A DNA stretch of 64,000 nt from Trigonopsis variabilis. Lineage: Eukaryota; Ascomycota; Trigonopsidomycetes; Trigonopsidales; Trigonopsidaceae. The notes under the pieces were generated by a model. The model did not search any database, was not told the origin of the DNA, and worked only from the letters and a program-made list of their open reading frames with translations. Made by a program: the position numbers and the translations under genes. Where the stretch lies: positions 993,756 to 1,057,755 of the forward strand of contig PPXM03000005.1 of the NCBI GenBank assembly GCA_003707065.3, in the 5' to 3' direction. This document shows, piece after piece, positions 6,753-59,500 of the stretch. Numbering within the stretch: position 1 is the first letter of the stretch; each line of letters opens with the position of its first letter.

Positions 6753-8675
6753 ATGGCGAAAATAAAGAAAAAAAATAAGCTCTTCCAGAGTAAGATTTAT
6801 TCAAGGACTAGCAGGGCAGTTGATTCTTCCTTAATTTCCGCTAAAGGGGATCGGGGGTCACTCGCACCTTTGGTTAGAGATTTATCCTCCACCGAAGATG
6901 ACAAACGACTGTCAGCAGTAACAGCCATTCACGCCCTTTTCCATGATGCTCTAAGCAGAGAATATCTCCTGAAAGAGAAAGTGGTCAAGATCCTGATGGA
7001 AAAAGGCATCCATGATTCCAACCAACAGGTCGTTGCAGAAACTTACGGGGCGTTATTGACTCTTGCCTCGACAATTGGCTATGATGTTTGTATGCATATG
7101 TATAGACAGGATATCTTGACCCCCATTATAAATACGTTAAATAGGACCACTGGCTTTATTTCTGCTCAACAATCTTTGGATGCTTTGGACCAAAAAACGT
7201 CTTTCAAGTTATTGGAAAATGTTCTCTCATTGCTGTGCTGCCTTATTGTTATAGCGGACCCTGTCCTAGATTCTATCGCCAAGTCTCTTCCTTCTCTTCC
7301 TCGAACTCTTCTGGATATTTTGTCTGTAAGTAAATCGCCTAAATCCTTACTGTCTGCAACTGCACAATGTTTATATATTGCCACTGACTCCAATATTCCT
7401 TATCAACAAGTTGTGGGATCCAAAGAGATTCTTGATTTTTTGGAGTATCGCGAAAACTTCCCTCTTGCTGCAAAAGCTTATCTGATTGGGGTCTTATATA
7501 ACTATTTTCTCGATGGTGATAGTCAAATTGAACTCTTCCATTTGGTCCGAATGTTAAATTCTGATTTGGACTTGAATTACGTTACCCAAGCTGCTGCTTT
7601 CCTTGATTGGAGTGACAACCGTGGAATAGTCTCACAGGACGATAAATCTACGGAAAACAATGAGAAGCTTCTAGATTCTGAAGATCGAGTGACTGCAATT
7701 GAGGTGGCGCTCGAACTATTTACCTCTATAGCTGAGACTATTGCGGACCAAACTCAAGAAAATTCCCACGCTCGCGCTATCGATGAAGTGATGGATGAAA
7801 CTGATGATAATATTGCTCCAGATAATGACGGACAAGATGAAGCTAATTTCGATGTGGACATGGATATTGCCAATAGTAATAATGAGGGTGAAGACGATAT
7901 AGATCAAGAAGTGATCAATAGTGACTTATCTTGCTATATTTTAGTGACCACATTACCAAAAATTGTTACATCTTTGGATATTAATTCGCTTCAATGCCGC
8001 GCTATTAGTGCCCTTAATAATTCTCTCTGGGCGTTCGCCTCTTCGGCTCTTAAAAACTCAAAGAAGTTAAGAGTAGTGGTGGAAAATGCTCTACCCAAGG
8101 TATTTGCAATAATTTCCTCTATTGTTTCAATGGATGCTAATAGCTGGACTGAAGAACATGTGCAAACGTTGACAGCTTGTCTTGGGGTTCTCTGGGCTAG
8201 CTCCGAAATTCTCCCTGAAAAAGTCGACATCTCATCAAACCAAGTTAACGATTTCATCTCTCTTTATAAATTGCTTGAATCCCGTGAGGAAGCTGGCCTC
8301 GAAGGCCGGGTACGATTGGTGGGCTTTTTGGGCGCAGTTGCTAGTTCTGAAGGAAACGTTGACCTAAATAGACAAGTTGGCACCTTCTTCATGACATTGA
8401 TAAGTAGCTTGCCTAATATTTCGGACCTTGTTGTTTTTCAAGTTTTGGATTCACTATTTGATATTTATGCGGATCAAGAATATGACTACGACGAACCAGT
8501 GTTCATCAAAATGAAATTCTTGGATCATCTCAAGAGATCTTTACCGAAGGTTCGTCAAGCGGTGAAAAAAATAGATAAGAAACGGTTTCCTGAACTTAGG
8601 GAACAGGGAGAAAATGCGCTGGAGAACTTGACAGGGTTCATCAAATACAAAACAGACGAAGGAAGACGGAAATAG
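6753..8675 (+). CDS. SYO1: Symportin SYO1 / HEATR3 family ribosomal-protein import chaperone
   Basis: Intronless, 640 aa. It starts with a Lys-rich N-terminus (MAKIKKKNK), followed by ARM/HEAT-type helical repeats (about 35-290). An acidic segment follows at about 340-390, rich in Asp, Glu and Asn, and then more helical repeats. The C-terminal basic tail (KKIDKKRFPELREQGENALENL) is typical of the family. Fungal Syo1 co-imports ribosomal proteins uL18 (Rpl5) and uL5 (Rpl11) with Kap104 and delivers them for 5S RNP assembly; the acidic loop binds uL5. The length matches fungal homologues of 600-680 aa. It is divergent from MLH1 and convergent with METTL4, whose stop codon lies 34 bp away. Confidence 0.85.
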   Translation: MAKIKKKNKLFQSKIYSRTSRAVDSSLISAKGDRGSLAPLVRDLSSTEDDKRLSAVTAIHALFHDALSREYLLKEKVVKILMEKGIHDSNQQVVAETYGALLTLASTIGYDVCMHMYRQDILTPIINTLNRTTGFISAQQSLDALDQKTSFKLLENVLSLLCCLIVIADPVLDSIAKSLPSLPRTLLDILSVSKSPKSLLSATAQCLYIATDSNIPYQQVVGSKEILDFLEYRENFPLAAKAYLIGVLYNYFLDGDSQIELFHLVRMLNSDLDLNYVTQAAAFLDWSDNRGIVSQDDKSTENNEKLLDSEDRVTAIEVALELFTSIAETIADQTQENSHARAIDEVMDETDDNIAPDNDGQDEANFDVDMDIANSNNEGEDDIDQEVINSDLSCYILVTTLPKIVTSLDINSLQCRAISALNNSLWAFASSALKNSKKLRVVVENALPKVFAIISSIVSMDANSWTEEHVQTLTACLGVLWASSEILPEKVDISSNQVNDFISLYKLLESREEAGLEGRVRLVGFLGAVASSEGNVDLNRQVGTFFMTLISSLPNISDLVVFQVLDSLFDIYADQEYDYDEPVFIKMKFLDHLKRSLPKVRQAVKKIDKKRFPELREQGENALENLTGFIKYKTDEGRRK

Positions 8676-8709: not shown

Positions 8710-9886
8710 CTAATTTTTATGAAGAAAGGAGCAATGATTAAACTTGATGCATTCATCCCCAATGACGGTCCAATTAGATCTACAGGATCTTGCGAACATC
8801 TCAAGTCCTTTGATTTGACTTCCCAAATGATGTTTAAAGATATCTATCGATGTTAGGCAATAAAAAAAATCACAAACCATCTAAAGCAGGTTTTCGAGAA
8901 TGGTAATCCGGAACAGCATAGACGACGGATACTCGCGACTCTGCTAAGGGAAAGTGGTTAGCGCGGGCAATATAAAGAGTCTCTAACGGTTTTCGGCTAC
9001 CCGGATCAGAAAGATCCATTAGGGGCTCACCAAATGCCGTTACTTTACACCAAAATACGGATTCAACGATGGTAAGCTTCTTTTTCTTGAAAAAATTCCT
9101 AACAAGTCTTTGCCATTTCAGTTTGTTAGTAACCCAAATAGCTAGAATACCATCTTCAGTCATAATCTGATCAAGTGAGAGATCAAATAGCCGATATGGG
9201 TCAAATGCATCGTACTGAAAAGCATGTCGAACTGACTTATTGGGCCAAGGTGGATCTAAAACTATTACATTCCATGGCTTGCGGTCTGAGATTGGTTCCA
9301 AAAATTCAGTAAAAGAGTGACGTAGCCTTCTTAGAATGAAAGCTGCCCGAGGGGGAAAGAAGAAGTTGGTGTTAAGGACCGTTGTTGTGATAAACTCGTC
9401 TGAATCATTATAAAACACACGATTATAAAGCTCATCTACAGCTATGACATCGATTATAGATGTTGGTTTTCGATCATTAGCCCACACACTAATCATTTGA
9501 AGGTTCTCCTTTAATGACCAGATGGAGCTTAATTTATGCCGTTCTTCCTTGTCATAATCCACAATTCGCGGAACCAAAAACATATTTGGTGGTATTTTTA
9601 CCAAATTAGACTTGATAATGTAAGTCAGTTCATCCCAGGATCTCCCTAAGATGCCAGTGGATGAAGGGTCATGCTGTCCTTTAGGGACGTCAAACGGTCT
9701 TTCTCGCGGTTCCGTAGATACGGGAGCATATCCTGGTGGAATTATCCCAAGACTCGTAGGTATATCGATCATATAGACAGCCTCAAGTTCTTTGAGCCTC
9801 TCGGATGCGCTTGTACTCTTGTATTCATTCATATTTATAAACCTGGCGTTTCCTTTTGAGCTCTGTTCTGGCCTCTGATCGATCAC
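8710..9886 (-). CDS. METTL4-type MT-A70 adenine N6-methyltransferase
   Basis: Two exons, 9886-8878 and 8843-8710, 380 aa. The catalytic DPPW tetrad followed by NKSVRH (about 212-221) is the METTL4 hallmark, unlike METTL3/IME4. Downstream come IWVTNK, FWCKV..GEPL and RKPLETLYIA, which match the rest of the MT-A70 domain. The 34-nt intron (8844-8877; GTTTGT donor, CTAAC branch) is supported because the second exon supplies the conserved ending GLEMFARSC..NWTVIGDECIKF. Without it the protein would lose the final motif. Known METTL4 enzymes methylate U2 snRNA (m6Am) and possibly DNA; the target here is inferred from family only. It is absent from baker's yeast. It shares a 184-bp divergent promoter region with DPP5. 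Confidence 0.9.
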
Positions 9887-10070
9887 CTGACTTCATTCGT
9901 TAAATCCTAGGCAGTGTCCATAAGTTGCTTTACCCTTTGGAGAAAATAAAGAACTATGAATGCTGGTCTGTGATCCCGTCACGACTATTCCAGTGATGGG
10001 TGAAATGAACATCCCAACTGAGGTTCCTCCCAATCACCACCCACCATCGACCAGGCGCTCGCACGGTGAA

Positions 10071-12324
10071 ATGAAGTTCCTGGTTTTTCTATTAACTGTT
10101 TTTACCAGTCTTGTGGGGTCACGATTCACATCAGATGACCTCATTTCAACTGGTTCTATCAACAGTCTTTCAGTCGCTGCTGACGGAGTAAGAGCCGCAA
10201 TGAGGAATGAGAGCATTCTAACTCCAGGAATGGTCAATTTTTATTTATAAGTCCTATTCTTTGTATTTTCATGAGTATACTGCTCAATTGCAAATTGTCA
10301 ACAATATGCTGGGGTCCGTTCGGACTATCTACTCGACCACTCGGCTGCAAGAAGTCACCTTTATTGATGGCGAGAACACGAGATTTCTGCTATTGACCAG
10401 TGAGGAAGGAGGAAATGAAACTTCATTATGGACTGGTGACATCTCCAGCGGCTATTATGTGGGACTAAGCCATGTTCGCCGTTTTCCTTCCCCTGTTTCT
10501 GGCCTAAAGACTCATAGAGATGCAAACGGTAGCGTTCAGTATGTCGTATCCGGCTGGGCTGGACCCGGAGGAGAACTAGGGGAAACTAAACCAAACAAGT
10601 ACGATTCTGGCGTGCTTTATGATTCTTTATATGTTCGTCATTGGGATTACTGGAAATCTGACAAGACCAGAGCCTTATTTACTGGCTCTTTAGTCTTTTC
10701 TTCCGATGATGATGTCTTTCAGGACTCTGGAAAGCTCCTGAATGTCCTGAAAAGAACAGGAATTGAATCGCCTAGGGGACCTTATTTCGAATCCAGCGAT
10801 TATGACTTATCCGAAAATGGCATCACCTTCTCAGCTAAAGCTCCGAACCTAAATCCTGCTCTTAATACGGCGTCCTTCATTTATAGGGTGGGATATGATG
10901 GGTCCAATCTGACTACCCTGAATGGCGCTTTGAGCCCTCCTCTTGGTTCAAGTGGTAGTCCTACGTTTTCGCCCAACGGCTCTCTTATCGCTTATCTTCA
11001 GCAGCATGAAAATGGATTTGAGTCTGATCGTTCCCGTGTCTATATTTGGGATTTGGAGACTAATACGACGAAGGAGTACTTCCCTGATTGGGACGTAAGC
11101 CCGAGCGGGCTGGAATGGTCACGAGATGGTTCCACCTTGTATATATCTGCGTTAGTAAATGCTACATCGCGGTTATTTAAGCACATATTTGCTGAAAACT
11201 TGAAATCACCCAAGCTGATCAAGCTAGATAAATACCAGTCTGTCGACGGGGTCTTCCCCACTGCCGGCAACAAGTTGATTCTCCACTTAACTTCCTTCAT
11301 CGAACCTGCTACAATAGCCCTCTTTGAGAGCGAGATTGATGAAGTTATCGCCTTGCTTTTCGAGATCTATCCTAGAGGAGGAGTTCTTGAACCGAGCAGA
11401 GTGGACGATTTTTGGTTTGTCGGAGCTAAAGGTCGAAAAGTTCAGGGATTTATCTTCTATCCTGAAAATTTCAATGAAAATAAAACGTATCCTCTTGCAT
11501 TTTTGATTCATGGAGGACCTCAAGGTGCTTGGGAGAGTTCTTGGAATAAACGATGGAATCCTTTAGCATGGACAGGAGCTAGTGAGGAAGGCTGGATTGT
11601 TGTTACGATCAATCCTACAGGTAGCACAGGGTACGGTCAAAAATTCGTCAATGATGTCTCGGAAAACTGGGGTGGTCTTCCTTTCGTGGATCTACTTCTT
11701 GGCTACAAATACATCCTGAGACACTCCCCTTTTATCGACTCTGAACGTACAATTGCAGCAGGAGCTTCTTATGGAGGTTACATGATAAATTACATCCAGG
11801 GAACTGAGTTTGGCCGGGCGTTCAAGGCCCTGGTTTGCCATGACGGGGTGTATGATACCCGCAGTTTTGGTGTCGATGAGCTTTACTTCCTCAACAAAGA
11901 GTTTGGTGGTATGCCTTGGACGAATCCCCAAGGCTACGAAATGTACAATCCTGCTAAACTTGTAGACAATTGGATGACCCCGCAGTTGATTGTCCATAGC
12001 GGACTCGATTTTAGACTTCCCATTACTGAAGGTCTTGCTGCATTTAATGCCTTGCAAGTCAAGGGTATCCCTTCCAAGCTACTCTATTTCCCAGACGAGA
12101 ATCATTGGATCATAAATCCCGAGAATAGCAAGAGATGGCATGACGAGATATTTTCTTGGATCAACCAGTGGACAATGCCTAAGGAAAGTGATGATGCAAC
12201 TGATTCTAAAGAAGAGTCAAGCTGGTTGGATAACATTTGGAAATCTGATGAACTTGAGCATATGGACGAATTGAGCAATAGGCGAGCTTCCTCAGCTGAA
12301 CCTGTTTTCTGGGCGATCTCTTGA
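10071..12324 (+). CDS. DPP5: Secreted dipeptidyl-peptidase V (prolyl oligopeptidase family S9)
   Basis: Two exons, 10071-10187 and 10228-12324, 737 aa. The chosen ATG gives MKFLVFLLTVFTSLVGS, a clear signal peptide; an upstream ATG in the same frame at 9960 would bury it. The 40-nt intron (GTAAGA...CTAACTCCAG) restores the frame into the beta-propeller. The alpha/beta hydrolase domain has the nucleophile in GASYGGYM (Ser553), the acid in HSGLDFRLP (Asp633) and the base in DENHW (His665). HGGPQG supplies the oxyanion region. Many NxS/T sites fit a secreted glycoprotein. The enzyme releases X-Ala/His-Ser-type dipeptides from extracellular peptides in moulds. The Ser/Glu-rich C-terminal tail after INQW is longer than in classical DPP5. 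Confidence 0.92.
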
Positions 12325-12600: not shown

Positions 12601-15600
12601 TTAGATTTCAGGAGTTTTAGGTCCACCAAGGACAAGAGCTAAGAGCGCCATACGGACGTAGAGGCCACACCGCATCTAGAAATGTTAGTATCTTTCGAGA
12701 AAGTTCATAATTTACCTGGCGGAAATAAGCGGCACGCTGGTCAAAGTCGACTTCTTCACTGATCTCATTCACTCGAGGAAGAGGATGCATGATACACATA
12801 TGGCTCTTGGCATTTTTGAGCATATTATTGTCGACAATATAAACGTCCTTCAAGCGCTCATACTCGGCTTGGTCGGAGAAACGTTCCTTCTGAACTCGGG
12901 TGCAGTAAAGGACGTCAGTTGCACCAAGAATTTCCGGAGTAATAACCTCAGATTCCAACACGAGTTTTCCATGGCTCGCCAGATCATCCCGAATTTCACG
13001 AGGCAGGGATAGCTCTTTGGGTGAGACAAGCTGGATTCGAACATTCCAGTATTCAAGTAGCTTACACAAAGAATGAACAGTGCGCCCATACTTAAGATCA
13101 CCCATGAATGTGACAGTAACGCCATTTATTGTGCCTAGCTCTTCGCGGATAGTGAACAAATCCAAGAAGGACTGAGTTGGGTGTTCTCTAGAGCCATTTC
13201 CACCATTAATGATAGGAACTGGGGAGAATTTAGCCGCAGTCGCAGCAGACTCCTCGGACGGGTGACGTAAAACAACCGCGTCACTATAAGATGCGAGCGT
13301 CCGAATAGTGTCCTGAAGAGTTTCTCCCTTGGTAACAGAGGAGCCTGTAGCTGTAACAGGGACTACTCGTCCTCCAAGACGTTGCATAGCAGCATTGAAA
13401 GATGCCGATGTCCTAGTAGAAGGCTCATAGAACAGAGTGGAGATTAGCCGACCTTTACAGATGTCGAGAACTCCTTCACGCTGGGTCATAAGACGCATAT
13501 CTTGAGCAACAGCGAAGAGGATATGCAGATCCGAGCGGTTGAACTGATCGACCGAAAGAATATTCTTGCGGAAGAATGGGTTGTTTCGAAGAACCTGCTG
13601 CAAAGCAGATGGAGGAGAAAGAGACTTGGGAATAGAAGGCTCAAATGAAGCTTCAGAAGGCGTTTGCTTGGCTAAAAGAGGCGAGAAGATTTCTGGGGCC
13701 TTGTTAGGTTGGGGTGACTGAATTTGAAGAGGCAAGCCTTCCTGTTCTTCCGGTTCTTCGATGCTAGGAACAAAAATAGAAGTATTGAGAAGCTCCGGTC
13801 TAATTTGTGGCTTCTCTTTGGTTTGAACATCAATCGAAGAAATTGCCAACGAGTAATTCCTGCAGATAGCCTCGATCAGCAACTTAGCACACTTCACATT
13901 GGTCACCAATGGAATTGAAAAATCAACAGCCATCCGACGAGTTCGGTAACCTTTCGACATATAGTTGGCAGGCCTTCTAAAATGATTATTGGAAGGCAAG
14001 TTGATGTAAAGCTCAATGGTATGGTTCGAAATATGCTGAGTCAAAGAATACTCCGACTTTTCAGATTCTTCGTCATTCAGGACTTCGACGTACTTCACGG
14101 GAACTCCATGTTCCTGTAAAAAGTCGGCAGTACCTGCAGTAGCGAACAGGTTATATCCGTGGTCATAAAGGTTCTTAATAGAAGGGAGCAACTCAGCCTT
14201 TTCGCGGAAAGAGCCGATGGAAACAAGTATATTCTTTTTCGGAAGCTTGAATCCAGTAGCAATGAGGGCTTTCAAGTAAGCCTCGTATTTATCGTGGCCA
14301 AAGCAGGCAACTTCACCAGTAGAAGCCATCTCAACTCCTAATACAGGATCAGCACCTGAAAGACGAGAGAAGGAAAATTGGGGAACCTTAACGGCCACTG
14401 TATTTTTTTCCAAAGTAACATCTTGAAGGGGATAGGCGCTAACCGGAAGACCACAGATGGCATCGGTGGCCATTTCAATTAAATCAATTCCACTGGTCTT
14501 GGACACAAAGGGGAATGATCGCGAAGCACGAACATTGCATTCGATAACTTTGATGTCATTATCTTTGGCGATGAACTGGATATTATAAGGGCCAGTCACA
14601 TTGAGAGCCTTGCCAATCTTTTGAGTAGCAACAACAATTCGTCGCACAGTCTCTGGATCAAGATCCTGAGCAGGGACGCAAAGAGTCGCATCACCTGAAT
14701 GTACACCAGCATTTTCCACATGTTCAGAGACCACGTGCATAATCATCTTTCCATCTTTGGCGACAGCATCCATCTCAATCTCTTTGGCATTCTCAATATA
14801 CTTTGTAATGACAACAGGATATTCGCGAGAAACCTCGACAGCTTGCTTCAAATAGTTCTCGAGGTCTGCCTTAGAGTAAACTGTATTCATCGCAGCACCT
14901 GAGAGAACATAAGATGGTCGAACGAGAACAGGATAGGAGACTCGATCACAGAACTCTTCAGCCTCTTCGATGCTGGTAAGCTCTTTCCAAGCAGGCTGAT
15001 CAACGCCAATGTTGTCCAACATTCTAGAAAATTTGTATCGGTTTTCAGCCGTGTCAATCATTTCAGGTGAAGTGCCCAAGATTTTAACATTAGATCGATA
15101 AAGCGAAATAGCAATATTATTGGAGGTTTGACCGCCCATAGAAATGATAACGCCACTGGAGGTTTCGAGTTGATAAATATCAAGAACCCGTTCAAGGTTA
15201 ATAACTTCGAAATAGAGACGATCGGCTTCATCATAATCAGTGGAAACAGTCTCAGGGTTGTAGTTCACCATAATAGTCTTCATGCCGTGATTTCGAAGAG
15301 TTCGAACAGCTCGAACGGCACACCAATCAAATTCAACTGATGATCCAATTCGATAGACACCAGAACCTAGAACCATTACGCCATGATCATTGAAATCAAG
15401 ATCATGGGAATCTCCATTGTATGTCATGTAGAGATAATTAGTATGCGCAGGAAATTCAGCAGCAACAGTATCAATCTGTTTAACAAAAGGCGTAATACCT
15501 GCTTCGACACGCAGTCGACGAACAGCCAGTTCGTTAGAGTTGATAAATTTTGCGATCTGCCGATCCTCAAATCCCAGTTGCTTCGCTTGTTTGATATATC

Positions 15601-18418
15601 TGATCGGAATGTTGCTCATGGTGAACTGGGAGAGACGCTTTCCGAAATTAATAAGATGAGAAAGCTTGTTCAAAAACCATTTATCGATTCGAGTCATTTC
15701 CCAAATTTTTTCAACGCTATATCCAGAATCCATCGCGTTGGCAATAGCAAATAAACGTTGGTCTGAAGGAGTTTGAAGTTCTGCATCAATGTCGATGGAC
15801 ATGAGCGCACTAGTAGCATTGAAACCCATGTTTTGATAGTCCACAGCTCGAATGGCCTTCTGTATCGCTTCTTCAAATGTCCGACCTATAGCCATAACTT
15901 CTCCAACGCTCTTCATACTCGAAGAGAGTACATTGCTGACCCTAGTGAACTTTTTAAGATCCCAACGAGGAATCTTGACAACACAGTAGTCAAGGGATGG
16001 CTCAAAACAGGTGCAAGTGCTCTTAGTGACAGTGTTTTTAATCTCATTCAAGGGAATATTAAGGCCAAGCTTAGCAGCAATAAAGGCTAAAGGATATCCG
16101 GTGGCCTTGGAAGCAAGAGCTGAAGATCGAGACAGACGGGCATTGACTTCAATGATGCAATACTCTTTAGAGAAAGGGTTCAAAGCATACTGGATATTGC
16201 ATTCTCCAACGACTCCCAAATGTCGAATGACATTAACCGCAGTCGTCCGCAGCATATTGTAATCCTCGTCAGACAGAGTCTGTGAAGGCGCGACGACGAT
16301 CGAGTCACCCGTATGGATACCAAGGGGGTCGAAATTTTCCATATTGCAAACAGTGATGCAGTTATCGAAAGCGTCGCGGACAACCTCATATTCAATCTCC
16401 TTCCATCCCTTCATACTTCGTTCAACAAGAACCTGCGGGCTGGCTGCAAAAGCCTTGGTGCATAGGTCGACAAGTTGCTGCTCGTTTTCAGCAAATCCAG
16501 AACCCAGACCACCTAACGCATAAGCGGCCCGAACGATCACAGGAAAACCAATGTCCTTCACAGCATCGAGAGCTTCTTGAACATTATTAGCCGATGCAGA
16601 TTTCGCACATTTTTCCCCAATTTGATCCATGCTTCTGGCAAATAACTCTCTGTCTTCGGTGGTGATAATAGTGTCGATAGGAGTGCCTAGAACTTTGACT
16701 CCAAGATCTTCGAATTCATCTTTCAGCTCGATACCGACATTAAGAGCAGTCTGTCCACCGAAAGTGACATAAATCGCATCCGGTTTTTCTTCCTTGATAA
16801 CTTTTCGGACAAATTCAGCGGTAACAGGCAAGAAATACACCTTATCGGCAAGACCACGAGAAGTCTGGATAGTAGCAATATTTGGATTAATAAGAATTGT
16901 GTAGATGCCTTCTTCTTTGAGAGCCTTAATAGCTTGACTACCAGAGTAATCAAACTCTCCAGCTTGACCAATACTAAGACCACCACTTCCGAGAACAAGA
17001 ACCTTTTTGGCGTATACTCGAGGGTGCTTTGCTCGGTTCTCGTCGATAAGGCCGTGAGGAAATTGAACTGGGGCAAGTATGCCCGCATTAGACGATTTTC
17101 TGACTGCATCGATGAAAATATCGAACAGAAATTCGGTATCACGAGGGCCAGGAGTAGACTCGGGATGGAACTGAACAGAGAAAAAGGGCTTTTCCGTGTT
17201 ATAGATACCTTCGTTCGAACCGTCATTGGCGTTAACAAAGAGTTCTTTCCAACCACTAGGCAGTGTGTCAGTATCGACAGCATATCCATGGTTTTGAGAT
17301 GTGATATAGCAGCGGCCGCTAATAAGATTTGTGCAAGGAATGTTGTGTCCACGGTTACCGAACTTGAGTTTCAAAGTTTCAGCACCGATAGCCCTAGCAA
17401 GAAGCTGATGCCCAAGACAGATGCCGAAGACGGGAACTTTTCCATTTTGAACAGCTTTAGCGAGAGATGCAACTGTAGAGTCAAGAAGAGCGGGGTTTCC
17501 AGGACCATTCGAGATAAAAAGACCATCATAAGGTTCGCTGATGAGAGATAAGTCGTAGTCCCAAGGTACCACAAATAATTCCACACCACGGCGAACGAAA
17601 CAGCGAATTTGATTGTATTTCATGCCCACGTCAATACAAAGAATGCGAAGAGTTCGGCCATCCTGGGTCTTGATCGCGTTGGCAGGTGCAGGTTTATAAA
17701 GCACAGGCTCCTTCACAGAGACGCGAGCTACAAGGTTTGACTCGTTGGGATTGTTCCAATCGACATTTTGAAACTTCGAAGAGCAAGACAAACGATCATA
17801 TTTATCGGAAACTTCAATCGAGAGTTTGGCAAGCATGCTACCTTTCTCACGGATGTGCTTCGTCAAGGCACGAGTATCGACACCGTACACAGCGGGAATC
17901 TTCTCCTCCTTTAGCCAAGCTCCAAGAGAAGATGTGGCCAGAAAGTGAGAATATTCTTCGCAGTAGCTGTTAACAATAAGACCTGCCACGTGGATTCTAT
18001 TGGATTCAAAATACTTGGGAATAGACGTCACAAGCTCGTCCATTTCGGTACGAGAAGGGACCCCGTAATTTCCAATCATTGGAAACGTGATCACCAATAT
18101 TTGACCTTCGTAGGAAGGATCTGTAATAGATTCAGGATAGCCAACCATACCTATATTCAGGAAAAGAAGCGATTAGCCTTGAAGATGATAGACGTCTCGA
18201 GCACACTTACCAGTCTGAAAGACAATTTCACCCGAAACAGAGATCTCGGCGCCAAAAGAATAGCCACGAGTAACGTAGCCGTCTTCTAACTCTATCTGGA
18301 CGAGCTTGTCATGCTCGTTTAGATAAGGTACCACCGGAAGATACTTAAGAGCGCGAACAGTATTATCAGAAGTAACACTGTTAACAACTTCAGAGAGGCT
18401 CGCACGTCTGTTGCTCAT
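12601..18418 (-). CDS. URA2: Multifunctional CPSase-ATCase (Ura2 type) lacking the dihydroorotase-like domain
   Basis: Three exons (18418-18211, 18150-12716, 12675-12601) encode 1905 aa. The 60-nt first intron splits the conserved [11 protein letters not shown]. The 40-nt last intron (TACTAAC branch) gives the ending [24 protein letters not shown]. Domain order: glutaminase (CLGHQ nucleophile loop, QFHPES), two ATP-grasp CPSase halves (to about 1510), a Pro/Ser/Glu-rich linker of about 80 residues, then ATCase (about 1588-1905; STRTS, REHPTQ, HPLPR). It makes carbamoyl phosphate and carbamoyl aspartate, the first two pyrimidine steps, in the cytosol. Fungal Ura2 normally carries an inactive DHOase-like domain of about 350 residues between CPSase and ATCase (about 2200 aa total). 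It is absent here, in one uninterrupted frame. See findings. Confidence 0.96.
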
Positions 18419-28606: not shown

Positions 28607-31366
28607 ATGACTCTGTGGAGAGGCTTGATGCCTAACATTGGCTCTTCATCGGAGGTCAACAAAATCCTTGACCTCCCCTGTTTGCCTTCTGAGAAGATAG
28701 ACAAGCTATTTGCTGACGATGATATGCTTCAAGAATTGCGTTCCTCTAATATTAAACTGGCAAAATTTTTCAAAGAGCCAGATTCCTTGCGAATTCTGAT
28801 ACAATTTATATTGGATTGTGACGTTAACGATAAGCAAGACGTTTGGAACGCGTCAAAGGAACCAGCAGTTGAAGATAGCTCCACTTCCAAACCTGAAGCT
28901 GACTCTGATGATCTCTCAACGACTAATGATCAAATTGAGCCTGATAATGACTTAGTCAATGAAAATCAGACTGAAAACTCTGAGAGCGAAAAGGACGATG
29001 AGATATCAACCAGCCTTGATGATGAAAATGTCGAACCGTAAGTTTTATTTGCGACTCCTATCAGTCTCATTTTACTGACATATATCTTCTTTAGAAATAT
29101 GAATAATCGACATCGAATGATGGCAAGAATTGCAACAGAAGTTCTCACGTGCGAACAGTCCTCGATAGCTGAATCCCTTCTGGAGCAAAGTGACCTTTTA
29201 TTACATCTTTGGACGCTGATGGATCGAAATCCTCCTCTTGATACGGTCACTGCGGGTCTTTTTACCAAAGTGAATGAGATACTTCTGGTTAAAGATACGT
29301 TAGCTATGATCAATTTCATCAAATCAGTTCCTAATGTCGTTCATAATTTCATCAAGCATATCGATACACCGTCAGTTATGGACCTTTTACTTAAAGTGAT
29401 CAGTACTGATCAAACTCAAAGCCCTACTGGGGTCATAGATTGGCTTCAGAACGAGAAAATCATCCCCAGTCTCGTTTCTTATCTTGGGCCTGAGTATCCT
29501 TCCACCACTCAATCCTCCGCAGGCGACTTTTTAAAAGCGCTTGTGATGATATCTGCCAATGCCCATGACGGAAATTCACTTGGACCAAATGAGCTTTCTC
29601 GCGAGTTGGTATCAGAACCTTGTGTTACGAACATGGTCAAAAATATGATTACAGGTGGCGGCACTGGATTAGCCACTACCGTCGGACTGATTATTGAAAT
29701 AATTCGCAAAAATAATAGCGATTATGATAGTGTTCCTGTGATGTCTGTCACTATTGAAAGCCATCCTCCGACTCTCAGAGATCCTATTTATCTAGGCACG
29801 CTTGTCCGAATTTTTGCTCAACATATCCCTGACTTTCAAGCAATGTTGTCCAGGAATCGCTCGGACGAAATTCTTGAGACAGCATTCGGTTATATAGAGC
29901 CACTGGGCTTCGAACGGTTCAAGGTTTGTGAATTGATCGCGGAGCTTCTTCATTGCAGTAATATGGCATTATTGAACGATCCAAGGGGAGAAGCAGTAAT
30001 CAGTGAGCGAGATGAATACAGAGACAAATTGAAACTTAATAAGCAAGGAGATGCTAGTGAGTTTAACTTGTCTGATAGTCAAATTAAAGACGAAGGAATT
30101 CTGCAAGAAGCGGAAAGAAATGAGCCCTCTGATTCTCTTTCTCATACTCTGGAGCCGGAGGAACATCTTAGGCCTACCGAGAGTTCTAGCACTGTGGAGT
30201 TCACTCATAATAAAGATTCAATGAGTGAGGTGGAAGCTTACCTTTCTAAATTTCAAGCTAAAGAACCTGTCATTGGAGACCAGCTTAAAATGGCTCTTGT
30301 GGAAAACAAAGTGATTCCGACGATTTTGAGGCTATTTCTTAGTTTTCCTTGGAATAATTTCTTGCATAATGTCGTCTTTGATATTGTTCAACAAGTCTTC
30401 AATGGACCGATGAATGAAGGCTATAACAAGTCGGTAGCGTTGGATCTCTTCGAAACGGGACATATCACGCAATTAATAGTCCGCGGGCAAGAACTTAATG
30501 ATGAACAAGAGAAGGGTAATAATCTGCGGATGGGCTACATGGGGCACTTAACTCTTATTGCTGAAGAGGTCGTGAAATTTACCAATTTGTTCAACGACTT
30601 GTTCACAGAGAAAGTGAAAGAGGAAGTGTCTGCTGAAGAATGGGTTCATTATAGTGAAGTCACACTGGCTGAAATTCGACATATGTATAACGCAGTTTTA
30701 GGTGGTCAACCATCGGAAATGGATGAGGAGAATCAATACTCACCTGTTATCAGCGGTAATGAGGGTGCAGAATTCGATGATGGACAGGATCTTTATTCTA
30801 GACCTGGAAACGAATTTGACGAATCTGGAGATCAGAATGATCAGTTTTCTCGGTATATGTCCCAAGAAATGTCAAATAATATCCCAGAACGCTTCGCATC
30901 CTCGGATGAAGATGAAGAGGATGAGGAGGGAGTAAATCTCCAGGATTACCATCATCGCCCTACATGGACGATGGACGAAGTGACTACAGGAGAGGATTCA
31001 GGTAACTTTTCGCTTGCATATTCGTCTTTCCCCTCCAATGACCATTCGGGACTTGATTCTAATAAGGATACGCATAAATATACATATTCCTTATATGATG
31101 ATGACGATGGAGCGAACGAGGATCTCGAACTTGTACGATCACCTAGTCATTCAAGTTTCGAAGATAACGAACACGATCATGAGGAGGATTCTCTTCAAAG
31201 AGATGACAGGGAGGTCTCGAATGATACTAATTACAACGACACTGACTCAGAAAATCTTGAACTAACAAGATCTAATCGCTCACATGAGAACGATGCAGCA
31301 GACGCAGATGCAATAGTTCGTCTGACGAAGACTTTATCTTTACATGACGAGGGAGAAGGCAAGTAG
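28607..31366 (+). CDS. SAPS-family protein, Sit4/Ppe1 phosphatase-associated subunit
   Basis: Exons 28607-29037 and 29095-31366 (57-nt intron, CTGAC branch), 900 aa. The start MTLWRGLMPNIGSSS is taken at the first ATG. The SAPS domain covers about 60-640: LPSEKIDKLFADDDMLQELRSSNIKLAKFF near the N-terminus, then IDWLQNEKIIPSLVSYL and TGGGTGLATTVGLIIEIIRKNNSDYD, and MGYMGHLTLIAEEV. The last ~230 residues are acidic, Ser/Asp/Glu-rich. Yeast Sap155/185/190 and S. pombe Ekc1 bind the PP6-type catalytic subunits Sit4/Ppe1 and act in TOR signalling, cell-cycle entry and tRNA wobble modification. It is tandem with the upstream nucleoporin gene. Confidence 0.93.
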
Positions 31367-31729: not shown

Positions 31730-33871
31730 ATGGTTTGGTTAACTGGGAACAATAACTGTAACATCAAAAATTTTTGGAGACTTCTCGAGACAGCAATGTG
31801 GATAACTTCCCAGATAGTTGAACTATGGCATTCCCTGAGATGGATTCTCTTAGAGGTCTTTGTTGTCTCTACGGTAATTTTTGTGCTCAGCATGAAAGTA
31901 AAGGATCGCGAGCATCGCCAACGAGATCTCGAAGAAAAAGCTAGCCCAAGTGACTCGCCAGCAGCTAAACGGGTACCAAAAATCTTCACAGCGAAACCAA
32001 AATATGTTCAAAATGCTCATCTGAGCAGGATTCCTTCTCTCGACAGTCATGTGATAATCTTTTTCTCGTCTCTGACAGGGACGTCGGAACGATATGCACA
32101 GAAGCTGGCTGCTTTGCTTAATAAGCCATTGACTCAAGAAGCGCAATTGATTAATTTAGACTATATTGAAGACCTTGATGTCTATTTTGTCAATCCTAGA
32201 GAGAAAGACTACGTCTACCTATTTGTTGTTCCATCTTATGATACGGATTCACCTTTAGATTTCTTCATTGAAACTCTGAAAGAGACTTATAATGACTTCC
32301 GCATAGATTCCAGGCCTCTTTCACGAGTACTAGGTTATAGTGTTTTCGGGGTGGGAGATAGCGAAGGATGGGGTGAATCAGAAAAGTTCTGCTATCAGGG
32401 GAAGGAAGTAGACAAGTATTTAGGAAAGCTCGGGATCCGACGACTATTTCCATTTGGAAAAGGAGATGTCAAGAAGGATGTCAGCAAAACCTTTGAAGAA
32501 TGGTCGACTTTTTTGCTGGGCACTCTTCGTGAAAGGGTTGAACCTGAGGAGATGGCTATAGTTGATTCGGACGATGAGGGTGATGGATATAATCAAGATG
32601 AACCAGAGGCAGAGCTAGCCGAGAAAAGACCCAGCGAGCTCACTGATATGGAAGATATCGGCTCTATGATTGAAAGTACGAGGAAATCTAGGGATTTGAG
32701 CTCGATAGCTACCAAAGAAATGGTTTCCAAGAATTCTCCAACCTATAATTCTCTCACCAAACAAGGATACACTGTCGTTGGATCGCATTCTGGTGTCAAA
32801 ATCTGTCGATGGACAAAATCTGCACTAAGAGGTCGTGGGAGTTGCTATAAGTTTGCATTCTATGGTATTAAAAGCCATCTATGTATGGAGACCACCCCTA
32901 GCTTGTCTTGCTCTAATAAATGTGTTTTCTGCTGGAGGCACGGTACAAACCCTGTCGGCACCTCTTGGAGATGGAAAGTAGATCCGCCTGAAGAAATTCT
33001 TAAGGGGGCTATGGAAGGACATTACAAGAAAATTAAGGTACTTAAGGGATGTGCCGGTGTCCAAGCTGAAAGGTATGCTGAAGCTTTCACTATTCGGCAC
33101 TGTGCTTTATCCCTGGTAGGGGAACCTATCTTCTACCCTCATATAAACAAATTCGTTTCTCTCCTTCATGAGAAACACATCAGCAGCTTCTTAGTTTGTA
33201 ATGCTCAGCATCCCGAACAGCTTGCCGCTATGGACCAAGTGACCCAATTATATGTCTCCATCGATGCTAGTTCTAAGGAATCCCTGAAGAAAATTGACCG
33301 ACCCTTACATCGAGATTTTTGGGAGCGTTTCAATCGCTGTTTGGATATTCTCAGAGAGAAAACTAACCAGCGCACCGTCTTTAGACTCACTCTTGTTAAA
33401 GGTTTCAATCTGGATGAAATCGATGGCTATGCAGATCTAGTTGCTAAAGGCCAACCATCTCTTATCGAAGTTAAGGGCGTTACTTACTGTGGAACTTCTG
33501 CCAGTAATCCTCTGACCATGCACAATGTCCCATTTTACGACGAAGTAAAGGAATTTGTGGAAAAGCTCGACAAAACCCTCCATGCTCGAGGGTTGGATTA
33601 CGGCATTGCCGCGGAGCATGCCCACAGTTGCTGTGTGTTGATGGCCAGGTCCTCTTTTAAAATCGATGGAGAATGGCATACTCATATTGATTACGAAAAA
33701 TTCTTCCAATTGCTGGAATCCGGCGTCAATTTTGGTCCTATGGACTACATAAGCCGGACTCCTGATTGGGCTCAGTACGGTTCTGATCAGGCAGGCTTCA
33801 ATCCTGAGGATAATCGATTCTATCGCAAATCGAGGAAAACTATTGCTTTGGGTCATGAAAAAAATCAATAA
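31730..33871 (+). CDS. TYW1: tRNA 4-demethylwyosine synthase (TYW1)
   Basis: Intronless, 713 aa from 31730; a start at 31796 is possible. An N-terminal hydrophobic helix (about 36-54) fits the membrane anchor of fungal TYW1. A flavodoxin-like domain (FFSSLTGTSERYAQKL, FGVGDSEGWGES) is followed by an acidic linker. The radical SAM domain carries CSNKCVFC, the three cluster-binding cysteines (about 394-401), with WRH next. The wyosine-base domain includes SLVGEPIFYP and KIDRPLHRDFWERF. The enzyme uses pyruvate and SAM to build the imidazopurine ring on m1G37 of tRNA-Phe, the second step of wybutosine synthesis. It follows the SAPS gene in the same orientation after 363 bp with no feature I recognise. 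Confidence 0.95.
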   Translation: MVWLTGNNNCNIKNFWRLLETAMWITSQIVELWHSLRWILLEVFVVSTVIFVLSMKVKDREHRQRDLEEKASPSDSPAAKRVPKIFTAKPKYVQNAHLSRIPSLDSHVIIFFSSLTGTSERYAQKLAALLNKPLTQEAQLINLDYIEDLDVYFVNPREKDYVYLFVVPSYDTDSPLDFFIETLKETYNDFRIDSRPLSRVLGYSVFGVGDSEGWGESEKFCYQGKEVDKYLGKLGIRRLFPFGKGDVKKDVSKTFEEWSTFLLGTLRERVEPEEMAIVDSDDEGDGYNQDEPEAELAEKRPSELTDMEDIGSMIESTRKSRDLSSIATKEMVSKNSPTYNSLTKQGYTVVGSHSGVKICRWTKSALRGRGSCYKFAFYGIKSHLCMETTPSLSCSNKCVFCWRHGTNPVGTSWRWKVDPPEEILKGAMEGHYKKIKVLKGCAGVQAERYAEAFTIRHCALSLVGEPIFYPHINKFVSLLHEKHISSFLVCNAQHPEQLAAMDQVTQLYVSIDASSKESLKKIDRPLHRDFWERFNRCLDILREKTNQRTVFRLTLVKGFNLDEIDGYADLVAKGQPSLIEVKGVTYCGTSASNPLTMHNVPFYDEVKEFVEKLDKTLHARGLDYGIAAEHAHSCCVLMARSSFKIDGEWHTHIDYEKFFQLLESGVNFGPMDYISRTPDWAQYGSDQAGFNPEDNRFYRKSRKTIALGHEKNQ

Positions 33872-36014: not shown

Positions 36015-36806
36015 ATGAATGGAACTTCAATGGCCCGAGTATTCGTGAAACCGTCTTATATGAAAGATGAAAGACCGCTCGAAAGCTCATCTGAAAGTTT
36101 GGGAGAAGGAAAAATCAAGGATAAATCAGACCCGAGAAAAGCTAAGCCGAAGGATATAGCCGCGAACGATCCTAAGAAGAGGCAGAGAAATAAGACGGGG
36201 GTGACATTATCTTTCGACGACGATGAGGAGGATCCTTTCTTAAATAGCAAGAAACCCAAGAGGAAGAGGGATCCTACGATATACGACAAACTCACTGAGC
36301 AAGGTGAGAAGGAAGAAAAGGAACGCATTGAGAACGAGAAAGAAGAAAGGGCCGCAGAGGCAAGAGAGAAGGAAATCGCAAAAGAAGAGATTGAAATGGG
36401 ATTCACCCTGATGGACGGTAAAGGAGTCCCCGGGACTATCAAAATCAAGAAAGGAGATGACATAAGGAAGGTACTGGAAGAGATAAGGAAATCAAGAAGA
36501 GAGCTTCACAAAACTAGAATCAACGATTTAATGCTTGTGAAAGACAACATAATAATTCCCCACAGCTACAGATTCAGCTACTTTGAAGCAAGGAAGATTA
36601 AGACCAGGAAAGGCCTTCTTTTCGACTTTGGAAACGCGACTTTGGAGGACAGCGTGCTACGAACCATGATCGTGACCCCGAACTGGTATGAAAAACATAA
36701 ACACATATACCCTGCCACAATCTGGGAAGAATTCAGCCCAGAGGAGGATTACGAAAAGAAAATCTACAAGGACAAGAACGGATTTGTCTATTTTAGTCAG
36801 GCATGA
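36015..36806 (+). CDS. XAP5/FAM50-family nuclear protein
   Basis: 263 aa from the ATG at 36015; MARVFVKPSY at 36030 is an alternative start. The N-terminal half is highly charged, with a Lys/Glu-rich helix (about 90-130). The XAP5 domain follows: EIEMGFTLMDGKGVPGTIKIKKGD, then IPHSYRFSYFEARKIKTRKGLLFDF and a C-terminus with NWYEKHKHIYPATIWEEFSPE. It matches human FAM50A and S. pombe Xap5. These are spliceosome/chromatin-associated proteins that affect intron retention and antisense transcription. A CTGAC...CACAG sequence just upstream (about 35985-36000) could be the end of a 5'-UTR intron; if so, a short upstream exon is missing from this model. Confidence 0.9.
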   Translation: MNGTSMARVFVKPSYMKDERPLESSSESLGEGKIKDKSDPRKAKPKDIAANDPKKRQRNKTGVTLSFDDDEEDPFLNSKKPKRKRDPTIYDKLTEQGEKEEKERIENEKEERAAEAREKEIAKEEIEMGFTLMDGKGVPGTIKIKKGDDIRKVLEEIRKSRRELHKTRINDLMLVKDNIIIPHSYRFSYFEARKIKTRKGLLFDFGNATLEDSVLRTMIVTPNWYEKHKHIYPATIWEEFSPEEDYEKKIYKDKNGFVYFSQA

Positions 36807-45491: not shown

Positions 45492-47732
45492 CTCTCAATT
45501 TGAAAGTAAGTATGAGGACAATGGACACAGAACGAAGGAACTAGGTGTCGTGAAACCAAAAAATTACCAGCGAGATAATAAGGACACAAAAACACTAGCA
45601 ATTACCATAAAAGCTAGAGATAACGATATGCCTTTATATGAAAGGTAGTCTATCCTCTTAACAGTAATGCGCTTCCACTGATATCAGGTGAAAATACAGC
45701 AGCTCAGATATTCCGATAAGAAAGAGACAAAGATACCGACTGGAAAGGATAGAAAGAGAAGTCTGGAATGATTGTCCGGATATTTCAATGATAAACGATG
45801 AGCTCCGTTGACTTCTGTCCTAAAGGAGGATGACTTGCGGATCTAAACGAAAGACTGCGATGCCTCTCCTCATCCGAAATTCACCATTTTAGTAAGTTTT
45901 GTCTGGGAAAGGCTGGACCGTATTGTAAAGGTACTATTTGAGCCGCATATAGCCTAATGTAGTATTAAGGACCAAACCGGCTGCCTATTTCGTACAAAAT
46001 CGACATTAAATTATGGCCGTGGACTCTATGAGGTTCAAGACAATAGGAATGGTCTCTCATTTTATTCTTTATCGGTAACAGCCGACAAAAAAGACCAATG
46101 ATAGCGCCTAAAATCAGGAAGTCCAAGAATCAGGCTACTCACAACCCCAACACATGAGGTCCTTCTCCTAAGATTGTGCGATTGCACACTTCGCCGGAGA
46201 GCAAGTTTAATCATATTATTTATATGAATATGACGAGGTTCCATATGACTTCTGAGTACGGTATTTGAAAGTAGATCGACGTACAATTTTAGAGTGGGAT
46301 TATGATGATTTAATCGAGCTTCAAAGTCAGGTCATCTCATCTCGTCTGGTTGTGAGGCAATACACGACTTGGCCAAGTGACGGCATTCTACCGTTATGTC
46401 CATGTTACGTCCATTCGTCCACCGTTCTCTGGGCAACAAGGTCTAGAACAGGCATCTAGAGGAAAATTACTTCTTCCAAAAAGGAACATAAAAAAGTCCA
46501 ACCTAACATGGCCTTTATAACTCACTATGGAGGAGGGGAAGTTGGACCGTTAGAATCATGATCACCATTGCCGAGAGTGCCGGACTCAAAGTATCCTGCC
46601 ACTATAGCGTGATGGATCAGTTTTTTAGTGTCTCTATCTATGTCAATCAAGAAAGATAAGATAAATCGAGCGATATAGAAGGCTGGTGTATGGGAAGAGG
46701 TCGTTTTCAGGATTGGGTACAAGATGGTCGTCGCTTCGCAGCTAAGCTCGTATCCGACCCCGCCTCTTCGTTACCCCAGTTATGAATCGTACACTTGCCT
46801 AATTAGTCTCTCTTATAGAAAGAGAGATATCCAGAATCTGAACCGCCCTTAATAAGGACTATTATTTGCTTGGCTTACCGCCATTAGTCTTGGTACATGT
46901 ACATCCAACCGTCTTTGCACCTAATCGAAGAGAGAACACCTGCATGTGATTCCTATTCATTCTAAATATTCTCAAAGTACTTAGTCTATATAAGGAACCT
47001 AGTCCTGGAGCATCATGACATGATATTTGCGTCTCTGATTCGTCGCCTTTGACTCTGTTTAATGAATGGCCTTTACTTTTTCGCCAATTCTACTTATAGC
47101 CATTCTTTAGTAGAAGTATGAAAAAAATAAAGCAAAGCACTCGCACTTCATTATTTTGAAGCATTTTGGCATTTCCTTATATAATTACATCAGAAGCACT
47201 AGCTTCTTTCATATTTATCTCCGTCGAAACAATGCCAAATTATGTAGCACTGTATGTGGTAAGTGGGGCTACTAACTTCCTCGACGTTTATTGTGGGGCT
47301 CAGCTGATCTTTTTTAACTTACCGTTCATTACCGACGCTCCTGATCCACGTGGGAAAGAAGCGGCGCGGTGGAAACGAAAAGCGCTGCTTGACACGCAAG
47401 TGCAGAAGAGATCTCTTTGAAACAGGAATAGGGAAATGGCACGGTATTTGGTTGTATAGGGAAATGTGAATTACGAATAGAATCAGATGATCGTAAAGCT
47501 GGACTTGACTATTGTCTAACATAAGTAGAACCCAATGTGAGTTAGTGGCTTTCAAAAAATAATTAGCGATAGGCTTCACTTTTTAGAACACGTCAATTCC
47601 AGTGAGCCGATAAGTACTTGAGTCCTATAAGCATTGAAGATTAAACCAACTATAATCTACCACGCTAAATGTGACTCAACTGCCAGTAATTATGCAACGC
47701 CTTGAGTGGAGAGGACAGACATCAGATTGATG
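45492..47732. other. 2.2 kb gene-poor region
   Basis: It lies between the HTH gene start and the RBG1 stop. Several frames of 60-86 codons are present (46062-46286 minus, 46265-46459 plus, 46525-46722 minus, 47166-47420 plus, 47319-47579 minus). None shows a domain I know. A CCACGTGG palindrome is at 47346-47353. The region may hold the long promoter of the HTH gene plus decayed sequence. Confidence 0.4.
46525..46722 (-). CDS. Hypothetical small protein or exon
   Basis: A frame of about 65 codons that extends open upstream to about 46770 without a further ATG. It contains FYIARFILSFLIDIDRD and KKLIHHAIVAGYFESGTL, a plausible helical composition, and ends in a Pro-rich tail. A GTGAGT donor-like sequence directly follows the stop. 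I recognise no family; it could be an isolated exon, a gene remnant or chance. Confidence 0.18.
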   Translation of the reverse strand: MYPILKTTSSHTPAFYIARFILSFLIDIDRDTKKLIHHAIVAGYFESGTLGNGDHDSNGPTSPPP

Positions 47733-56541: not shown

Positions 56542-59500
56542 ATGTGTGAAATGCCCGAAGATTTCATTACATTGATCTTGGAGGCAATTGTTTTTGAAGG
56601 CGAGCGAGGTAATCATATGATGAGAGAATTATTCGCTAACTAGACTAAGGTATACTGCTTGGAGAGATGCATACTTTTCTTAAGCCTGAGAAGCATCAGA
56701 ACTTTAATCCAGTTCTCTTTAGCTGGATTAAGGAGCATCCTGAAGAGTTCTTGATTGGAGATATGACTAGCGAAAAGGTAAGAACAGCTCTCTTTTATTG
56801 CTTATTAAAGAAACCCATCCTAGACTATATCGACGAAGATTATTACGAGATAATACATTCTCATCCTGCGAGCCGTATATTCGTGTCCGAGGCCGTTCAA
56901 TATATGACGCTAACAGGAATGCCACCAGAAGTGAGTCCGATAAAAGGAGCAACGTTGGAGGTACTTAGGGTAGTCGCTCGATCGCGAGAGCAGGGTATTA
57001 TAGGGACTGAAATTGCGAAGCAAACGCGGCAAGATCCTCGATCTATCTTCCAACGAATCCAGCAGCTAGTGAAAACCGGCCTTGTGATAAAACGATCTTT
57101 GTCAATAGAAGGGTGTCGGACAAGTCATGTACTTCTGACCAAATATGGTAACTTGGTTAATACAAGGCCCACTTCTAATGTCGATGTCCGCCGGCTTAGA
57201 AAGATGGTCATATTCTCGTTAAAAGGCTCTGTTAATATGCTACGCAATTATACTGATCTAAGGTATCAACTCGGTTGCGATCAATCGAAGTTTACTCGGA
57301 GACTATTCACCCGAATAGTTTCTAAACTGGAAGCTGATGGTCTTATAGAAAGGGTTATAATATCTCGGCAAGAAAATAATGTCAAGACTAAATATAACTG
57401 TATCAAATATGTCGGAAAAGGGTCTCTTTATGAAGGCGCGGAACATTCTTCAGATGAGGAATCGCTCGATTTGAATGACAAGATTTCTGATGATTTTTTG
57501 GATGAAACTCTAACTAATTCATGTGATAATATCATCAATAAAACGAAAGCTCCTGGGCTGTCGTTTACAAGATTTCTATCAATCGAACTACAAATCTTTT
57601 ACGAGATCAAATCAATAGGAAACAATAGCGGGGTTACTCTCCCACATTTATTCGTCAACAATTTTGGATCGAGATATTATAAACCTGTCTACTCTTATCT
57701 GGAAAGGTATGTTACTTTTTTCTCTCGGCTTGATAAGACAAAACTTCTTCATAATATAAAACGATGGTTTCAGCTTTACAGGGAGCAGGATAGTTCGGAC
57801 AAGATATCCTTTTACAGATATTTTCTCCGTTCACATGTTGGTTCGTCACCATCTTCCAAAGAAAAGGAGCAGAAAAGCGATGATTTAGCTTGTTTAGCGA
57901 AAGAGGTTCCGGTAGGTCTTATAGGACCCGGAACTACTGGTGTTGATAACTACTCTGAGACGGAAGGAAGAAGAGTATATCCGTTAGCGGGCCAAATTCG
58001 GCCCCTCAGTACCCAGTCTACAGACGAAATTGTTCTCTCCGAAAAGGCTTTGTCTTCTATAGTTAACTCCCATGAGAGCTATGCGACCAGAAAGAGATTG
58101 AATAGAATAATTGAGCTCCTTAAAGATAATGATGGAATTATAGAGGGAGGACAGTCACTTATGACGTTGTACAATTCTCGCTATAATGTGAACTCGGGAC
58201 AAATTGATCGCAAAACATTGAAAAAGGCTCTAGACTATCTCAAGACTAAGAGAATAATTCAGGAAATGGGTATGTCTGTGATCTTACCAAGTGGAAAACC
58301 GAAACTAACTTGGATCATATCTTTTTCTAACCTTGATATGAACGGGCAGAAATTTGCGTCTTTTAGAGATTCGCTTATGACGAAATATCGAGAGAAGAGA
58401 TCGCAGGCACGGCAGACAATGCGAATGAATGAGGACTTCAAATTCTATTCAGATCTTTCTACTGAACAGAAGTTCAAGAAAGTTGAAAGAAAGATAGAAC
58501 TTCTGCTTGATTCTACCGAGTTCGATGTGCTAGACAAAGAAGAAGCAAGAAAGAAATTATCCAAGCGTCTAGCTAAAAGCAAACCATTGAAAGTTGGCGT
58601 ACAACCGCCCTTGAATGTCAAGACCTCCAACGGAAAGGCAAAACCGAATCACTATCAACCTACTGAGAGCGATTGGATAGTGTCTACTCCTACACCACGG
58701 TCAAATATTCTTCCTGGCTCGCATTTCAGTGCTGAAGATTCTGATAATTTACTACGAAGTGTGATTATTTCCCGTTCTTTTCAGCAACATTCTAAAGTTA
58801 TTGATTGGTGCAAGATCAAGCTACAATTTCCTAACTTAAAACTTATAGAAATCAAGAAAGCCTTCCAAAGATTGAGAGAAAAATATGGAGGGAAGGCGTT
58901 TCTGGATTCTATTTATGAATTATGGGAGTCAGTCTTTCTCTTCTCTTATAGGAAAGGCGAAATTGATCTTCCGTTGGAGAACTATGATCTTGCGGAATAT
59001 CTTCGCTTTTGGAAAATGAAGATGCCATCGTGCATTTTCGATCTTTCCTCTATTGATATATCGGCTTTTAGTCGAAGGCAAGAGTCTTCTAACCTTGAAT
59101 TCAGAAGGAATTCCACGGAATCTTGGTCTGAGTATGTGGGAAGCGCTAGCTCTTTGTCAAAGGAACGCATGCTCCTTGGATCTCTTTCTTTAAGCATGAG
59201 AATCGATAAAGAAATGCAATCGGATACAGAAAGCCCTAACGAAGCATTTATTCATAACGCTCTAAAAGAGATCAACATAGAGAATATCATTAATGATTTG
59301 CAAGAGAGAAAGCTAATTCGAAGGGCTCACTCCAGTGCCCGAGATTGTCCATGGATACTCACGGAAAGGTAAAATTATATTATATACACATGCTAACATG
59401 ACGCAAGGGCTGTTTCTAAACTTCGAACTAAACCAGGAATTGAAATCTTCAAGGAAGCAAAGGATTTTCACAACTGTCTGATTAATATCATGCAATCATC

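Follow-up and report, generated by a model that had tools for sequence, protein, structure and literature searches.

The role of the inactive DHO-like domain (pDHO) of fungal Ura2 has been argued to be structural, with DHO dimers joining ATCase trimers into hexamers (PMC9863657). A URA2-type gene of Trigonopsis variabilis, located in the 64,000-nucleotide stretch analyzed here (hereafter the window; contig PPXM03000005.1, positions 993,756 to 1,057,755), was described in an earlier note as lacking this domain, which raises the questions of whether the domain has truly been lost, whether anything is left of it, and how a Ura2 without it would work.

Organization of the URA2-type gene

The gene occupies window positions 12601-18418 on the minus strand and comprises three exons. 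Exon 1 (18418-18211) encodes the N-terminal part of the CPSase small-chain domain and is followed by a 60-nt intron (intron 1, 18151-18210; GT...AG). Exon 2 (18150-12716) contains the CPSase–ATCase domain junction, with no intron nearby; intron 2 (12676-12715; 40 nt, GT...AG) carries the sequence TACTAAC, and exon 3 (12675-12601) encodes the ATCase C-terminus and the stop codon. When the three exons were joined at these junctions, which were predicted from the sequence, and translated, they gave exactly 1905 codons, and the frame stayed open across the CPSase–ATCase junction, reproducing the continuous frame of 1905 aa reported in the earlier note. The N-terminus of the protein (18418-18380, minus strand) contains an RRxS motif, which we take to resemble a PKA site.

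Pfam analysis of the unspliced ORF (12617-18148) detected CPSase_sm_chain, GATase, CPSase_L_D1, D2 and D3, MGS, OTCace_N and OTCace. These families cover the glutaminase pair, the two halves of CPSase together with the oligomerisation domain, the allosteric MGS domain and the two domains of ATCase, giving the order glutaminase, CPSase, linker, ATCase. Glutaminase and CPSase form one fused chain, as indicated by Pfam and by comparison with E. coli positions (see below), and a fungal-type ATCase is present at the C-terminus of the same chain. None of the 18 Pfam families found in this ORF at E ≤ 1 was an amidohydrolase. With both flanking domains complete and only 96 aa between them, the claim that the DHO-like domain is missing from this fungal Ura2 was confirmed.

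The surrounding genes encode a Syo1-like protein (6753-8675), an MT-A70 methyltransferase-like protein (8870-9832), a prolyl oligopeptidase (10306-12324), a SAPS protein (29099-31366), a TYW1-like protein (31730-33871), an XAP5 protein (36015-36806) and a TFIIIC tau138-like protein (56667-59372). Positions 6753-62000 thus hold a compact, intron-poor fungal gene set, and the PDB matches of the Syo1-like and TFIIIC tau138-like proteins confirm its fungal type. Rfam and tRNA scans of the window gave no match in either case.

The linker between CPSase and ATCase

The interval from LLIEAI, at the end of CPSase, to FFRKN, at the start of ATCase, comprises 96 residues (aa 1499-1594; 13864-13577, minus strand). 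In the 2214-aa yeast Ura2, where CPSase spans residues 441-1482 and ATCase residues 1910-2214 according to PMC4625875, the same interval is about 430 residues long (427 by these boundaries), and the solved inactive DHO-like domain, PDB 5NNL, has 342 residues. The net loss relative to yeast Ura2 is about 330 residues, an approximate figure because the domain boundaries are not defined identically. Two overlapping fragments covering the linker matched no Pfam family at E ≤ 10, and a phmmer search with the longer fragment matched none of 177,635 distinct PDB sequences at E ≤ 10. Because the 96-residue linker matches nothing in Pfam or PDB at this threshold, we conclude that about 320 residues of the pDHO barrel are absent, in agreement with the earlier statement that no TIM-barrel segment is present. 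Apart from the stub described below, the inactive DHO-like domain is missing from between CPSase and ATCase, and a tblastn search with 5NNL (336 residues) revealed nothing convincing elsewhere in the window, the best of the matches listed having an E value of 0.41 (46558-46629). An intron hiding the pDHO was rejected, because the flanking domains are only 288 bases apart.

The linker has a codon usage score of −1.086, within the range seen across the remainder of exon 2 (−1.025, sd 0.067). Uniform synonymous choice would give −1.377 (sd 0.057) for the linker, and none of 1,000 such sequences scored as high as observed. Because its codon usage matches that of the rest of exon 2, the linker is ordinary coding exon. 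Its final 60 residues (13577-13756, minus strand) form a Pro/Ser/Glu/Gln-rich tail (P 20%, S 13%, E 12%, Q 12%) leading into ATCase, whose end resembles the N-terminal extension of the Chaetomium ATCase, ctATC (LQEMLAAPSSF). Of the about 80 Pro/Ser/Glu-rich residues noted previously, the rich part proper is confined to these 60 of the 96 linker residues. A predicted structure of the last 494 residues of exon 2, based on a two-sequence alignment, had a mean pLDDT of 50.1; because the MGS part, whose fold is known, also scored below 50, the low model confidence in the linker carries no meaning.

A putative remnant of pDHO

The remaining 36 residues of the linker (13757-13864, minus strand) comprise its CPSase-side end and what appears to be the decayed first strand of pDHO, and are hereafter called the stub. 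Twenty of these residues (13757-13816, minus strand) align in register with residues 1-20 of 5NNL, which starts HRTIQLPGLINIAAFVPGLV, and this segment pairs with HRTIQLPGLINIAAFVPG of that structure. When residues 1-20 of 5NNL were slid along the 96-residue linker, a score of 26 was obtained once and scores of at most 3 everywhere else. A score of 26 was reached by one of 20,000 fixed-register shuffles, by none of 7,922 20-mers from the 17 other ORFs of the window and by none of 1,770 20-mers from the rest of Ura2 (0 of 9,692 when both sets are taken together). Likewise, when the comparison was free, ungapped and limited to the first 24 residues of 5NNL, no shuffle out of 2,000 reached the score. 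When the linker was compared without gaps or positional restriction with all 336 residues of pDHO, the result was weaker, with 4 of 150 shuffles reaching the score, and the match was reported neither by phmmer/HMMER nor by tblastn. The same alignment was also the top choice for the DHO of human CAD and for a bacterial DHO (locus L001, see below), albeit weakly: both scored 6, which 63 (human) and 30 (L001) of the 7,922 background 20-mers reached.

The match begins 16 residues past the CPSase end, as in the yeast Ura2 sequence; counted from the LLIEAI end, the stub shares 12 of 36 residues with that sequence, and none of 20,000 shuffles reached the score. The stub has the N and F-V-P in common with the inactive pDHO of fungi; the H-V-H of active enzymes is missing from it. 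The motif HRTI.LPGLINIA, common to 5NNL and the yeast sequence, has decayed in the window protein, where LPGLIN has become RPELLN, while the adjoining ATCase is still 65% identical to ctATC. The earlier note had stated that no LPGLIDVHVH-like sequence is present and that nothing of the domain remains. The absence of a barrel, and with it the loss of the domain, is supported; nevertheless, the form seen in fungal pDHO, LPGLINIAAFVP, has a degenerate counterpart at the expected place. We read the stub as the remnant of a fungal pDHO that was already dead before it was lost. The stub is short, and its decay suggests that the loss was not recent.

Conservation of the flanking enzymes

We compared Ura2 with E. 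coli CarA, CarB and PyrB at 54 active-site or ligand positions, and 49 of them were identical. In the glutaminase, 10 of 11 positions equal those of E. coli, including the triad C269, H353 and E355, the exception being F314, which is Y. The CPSase agrees at 24 of 28 positions and differs at E208, L210, D753 and L755, which contact ATP on its adenine or ribose side. All 15 positions checked in the ATCase are the same. The assertion that the catalytic residues of the flanking enzymes are intact thus holds for the glutaminase triad and for ATCase, but is too broad for CPSase and for the glutaminase as a whole, where not every position equals its E. coli counterpart.

These results bear on the idea that the gene is a pseudogene or encodes a Ura2 that is inactive in part, with another, full-length copy elsewhere making up for it. 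URA2 duplications have been described in Mucorineae and in Rhizopus delemar (PMC4625875), which lends this idea some plausibility. However, 1905 codons are open, both introns look normal, the active-site positions are conserved and the codon bias is kept, and we regard this explanation as very unlikely.

Origin of the loss

Considered together, these observations make it highly probable that this is a genuine fungal Ura2 that lost an already inactive pDHO when about 1 kb, coding for about 320 residues, was deleted internally and in frame, and we infer that the flanking enzymes remain functional. Because a decayed stub of the first pDHO strand remains, the deletion would be a secondary, internal one, and because the HRTI.LPGLINIA motif has decayed, it would be old and followed by relaxed constraint on the stub. 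The entry of the domain (its first 18-20 residues or so, decayed) would have become joined directly to the flexible Pro/Ser/Glu/Gln-rich tether.

Could the gap instead lie in the assembly, the contig having dropped about 1 kb encoding pDHO? The size of the loss is indeed close to that of one domain. On the other hand, the frame is kept through the junction, and the 60 residues that follow the stub show codon usage that is ordinary for this gene. A recent break should moreover have left the conserved LPGLIN in place, whereas RPELLN is seen beside an ATCase as well conserved as this one. An assembly artefact is therefore very unlikely. A different possibility is that CPSase and ATCase were fused ancestrally and that a DHO domain was never present, as the lack of any recognisable barrel would allow. 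This is at odds with the stub, which matches the beginning of the inactive fungal pDHO and does so in the register expected, and with an ATCase of fungal type that is nearer to Chaetomium than to human, so that we consider an ancestral fusion extremely improbable. Secondary loss is the best reading of the sequence and fits it better than a primitive CPSase–ATCase fusion or a recent gap in the assembly would.

The loss may also be real but ordinary, namely old, common to a whole fungal lineage and visible in protein databases, even if the literature covered here does not discuss it. This proposal overlaps with the secondary deletion favored above and differs from it solely in breadth. It is compatible with the decay of the stub, which suggests a non-recent event, and with the wording of PMC4581275, where fungal ATCase is "usually" joined via an inactive pseudo-DHOase; PMC6022934 similarly refers to a fungal protein carrying an "active or inactive DHO". 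Three scans of the viral_contigs collection gave 4, 57 and 35 pattern matches with no confirmed relative, and a scan of genome_contigs gave 36 with one confirmed, the bacterial DHO of L001; no fungal Ura2 appeared in these collections, which contain no fungal genomes. The literature searched, in which few subscription journals were covered, yielded no description of a fungal Ura2 without pDHO, which is not proof that none has been published. We hold a lineage-wide loss to be a real possibility, if one somewhat below an even chance. Length filters may hide proteins of this kind: a 10% size cut-off was applied in assembling the URA2 family of PMC4625875, and a protein of 1905 aa, 14% shorter than yeast Ura2, would probably be dropped.

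Predicted assembly and pathway function

In CAD, the hexamer consists of ATCase trimers and DHO dimers, and mutations that disrupt DHO dimerisation break it up into trimers; ctATC is active as a trimer on its own, and a further contribution might come from CPSase dimers (PMC9863657). Because the DHO-dimer contact that turns trimers into hexamers is absent from the window protein, its particle should be a trimer, or else be held together by CPSase–CPSase contacts. We infer that this Ura2 forms ATCase trimers without a pDHO dimer contact. Glutaminase and CPSase would make carbamoyl phosphate, which the ATCase domains, trimerising as in ctATC, would use, with the CPSase parts tethered to the ATCase trimer by about 60 flexible residues. 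A separate URA4-type dihydroorotase would then make dihydroorotate; no separate DHOase was found among the other 17 ORFs of at least 200 aa in the window. The MGS-type allosteric domain is present, and UTP feedback by way of it should persist. In yeast–mammal chimeras, swapping pDHO reportedly impaired channelling. That channelling of carbamoyl phosphate and the response to UTP are retained in the pDHO-free Ura2, working as ATCase-based or CPSase-joined trimers on a disordered tether, is a tentative proposal to which we give close to, but not quite, an even chance.

If it is true, fungi can do without their conserved inactive DHO domain, and pathway control does not require the hexamer architecture. 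A species without pDHO but with its active-site positions kept amounts to a natural deletion experiment on the role of the domain, and the protein is useful because that role becomes directly testable. The shorter, simpler chain may also lend itself to structural studies, which this multienzyme has so far resisted.

Comparison with known systems

The order of the flanking enzymes is the same as in animal CAD. CAD, however, has an active DHO domain, whereas the window protein has none, only a stub in which the metal-ligand motif H-V-H is lacking. Bacterial class A ATCases, such as those of Aquifex and Pseudomonas, work with a DHO or pDHO partner, and in P. aeruginosa pDHO is needed for ATCase activity, so that the role of a DHO-like partner can be structural only (PMC7053772); no such partner is present in the chain described here. 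An ATCase need not depend on pDHO, because ctATC alone is an active trimer (PMC9863657). In L001, a locus of the Anaerolineales MAG UBA6663 (9935-12101), a dihydroorotase ORF is directly followed by an ATCase ORF, the same DHO–ATC order as in eukaryotic CAD. The former aligns to residues 4-316 of the fungal pDHO (32% identity in the best segment) and the latter is 52% identical to the window ATCase, and this pair is possibly a prokaryotic relative of the CAD module.

The ATCase scored 430 bits against the ctATC chain and 298 bits against the human CAD chain, which supports the assignment of this Ura2 to the fungal type, and it shares with ctATC the N-terminal extension LQ..L. As in S. cerevisiae URA2 and its Chaetomium thermophilum counterpart, GLN-CPSase-MGS is followed by a C-terminal ATCase in one chain. 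The differences are that, of the inactive DHO-like domain of fungal Ura2, only about 20 residues are left as a decayed stub, and that the protein has 1905 aa, as compared with the 2214 aa given for yeast in PMC4625875. Because only the pDHO stub remains, the window protein is best described as a derived variant of fungal Ura2 rather than a full four-part member of the family.
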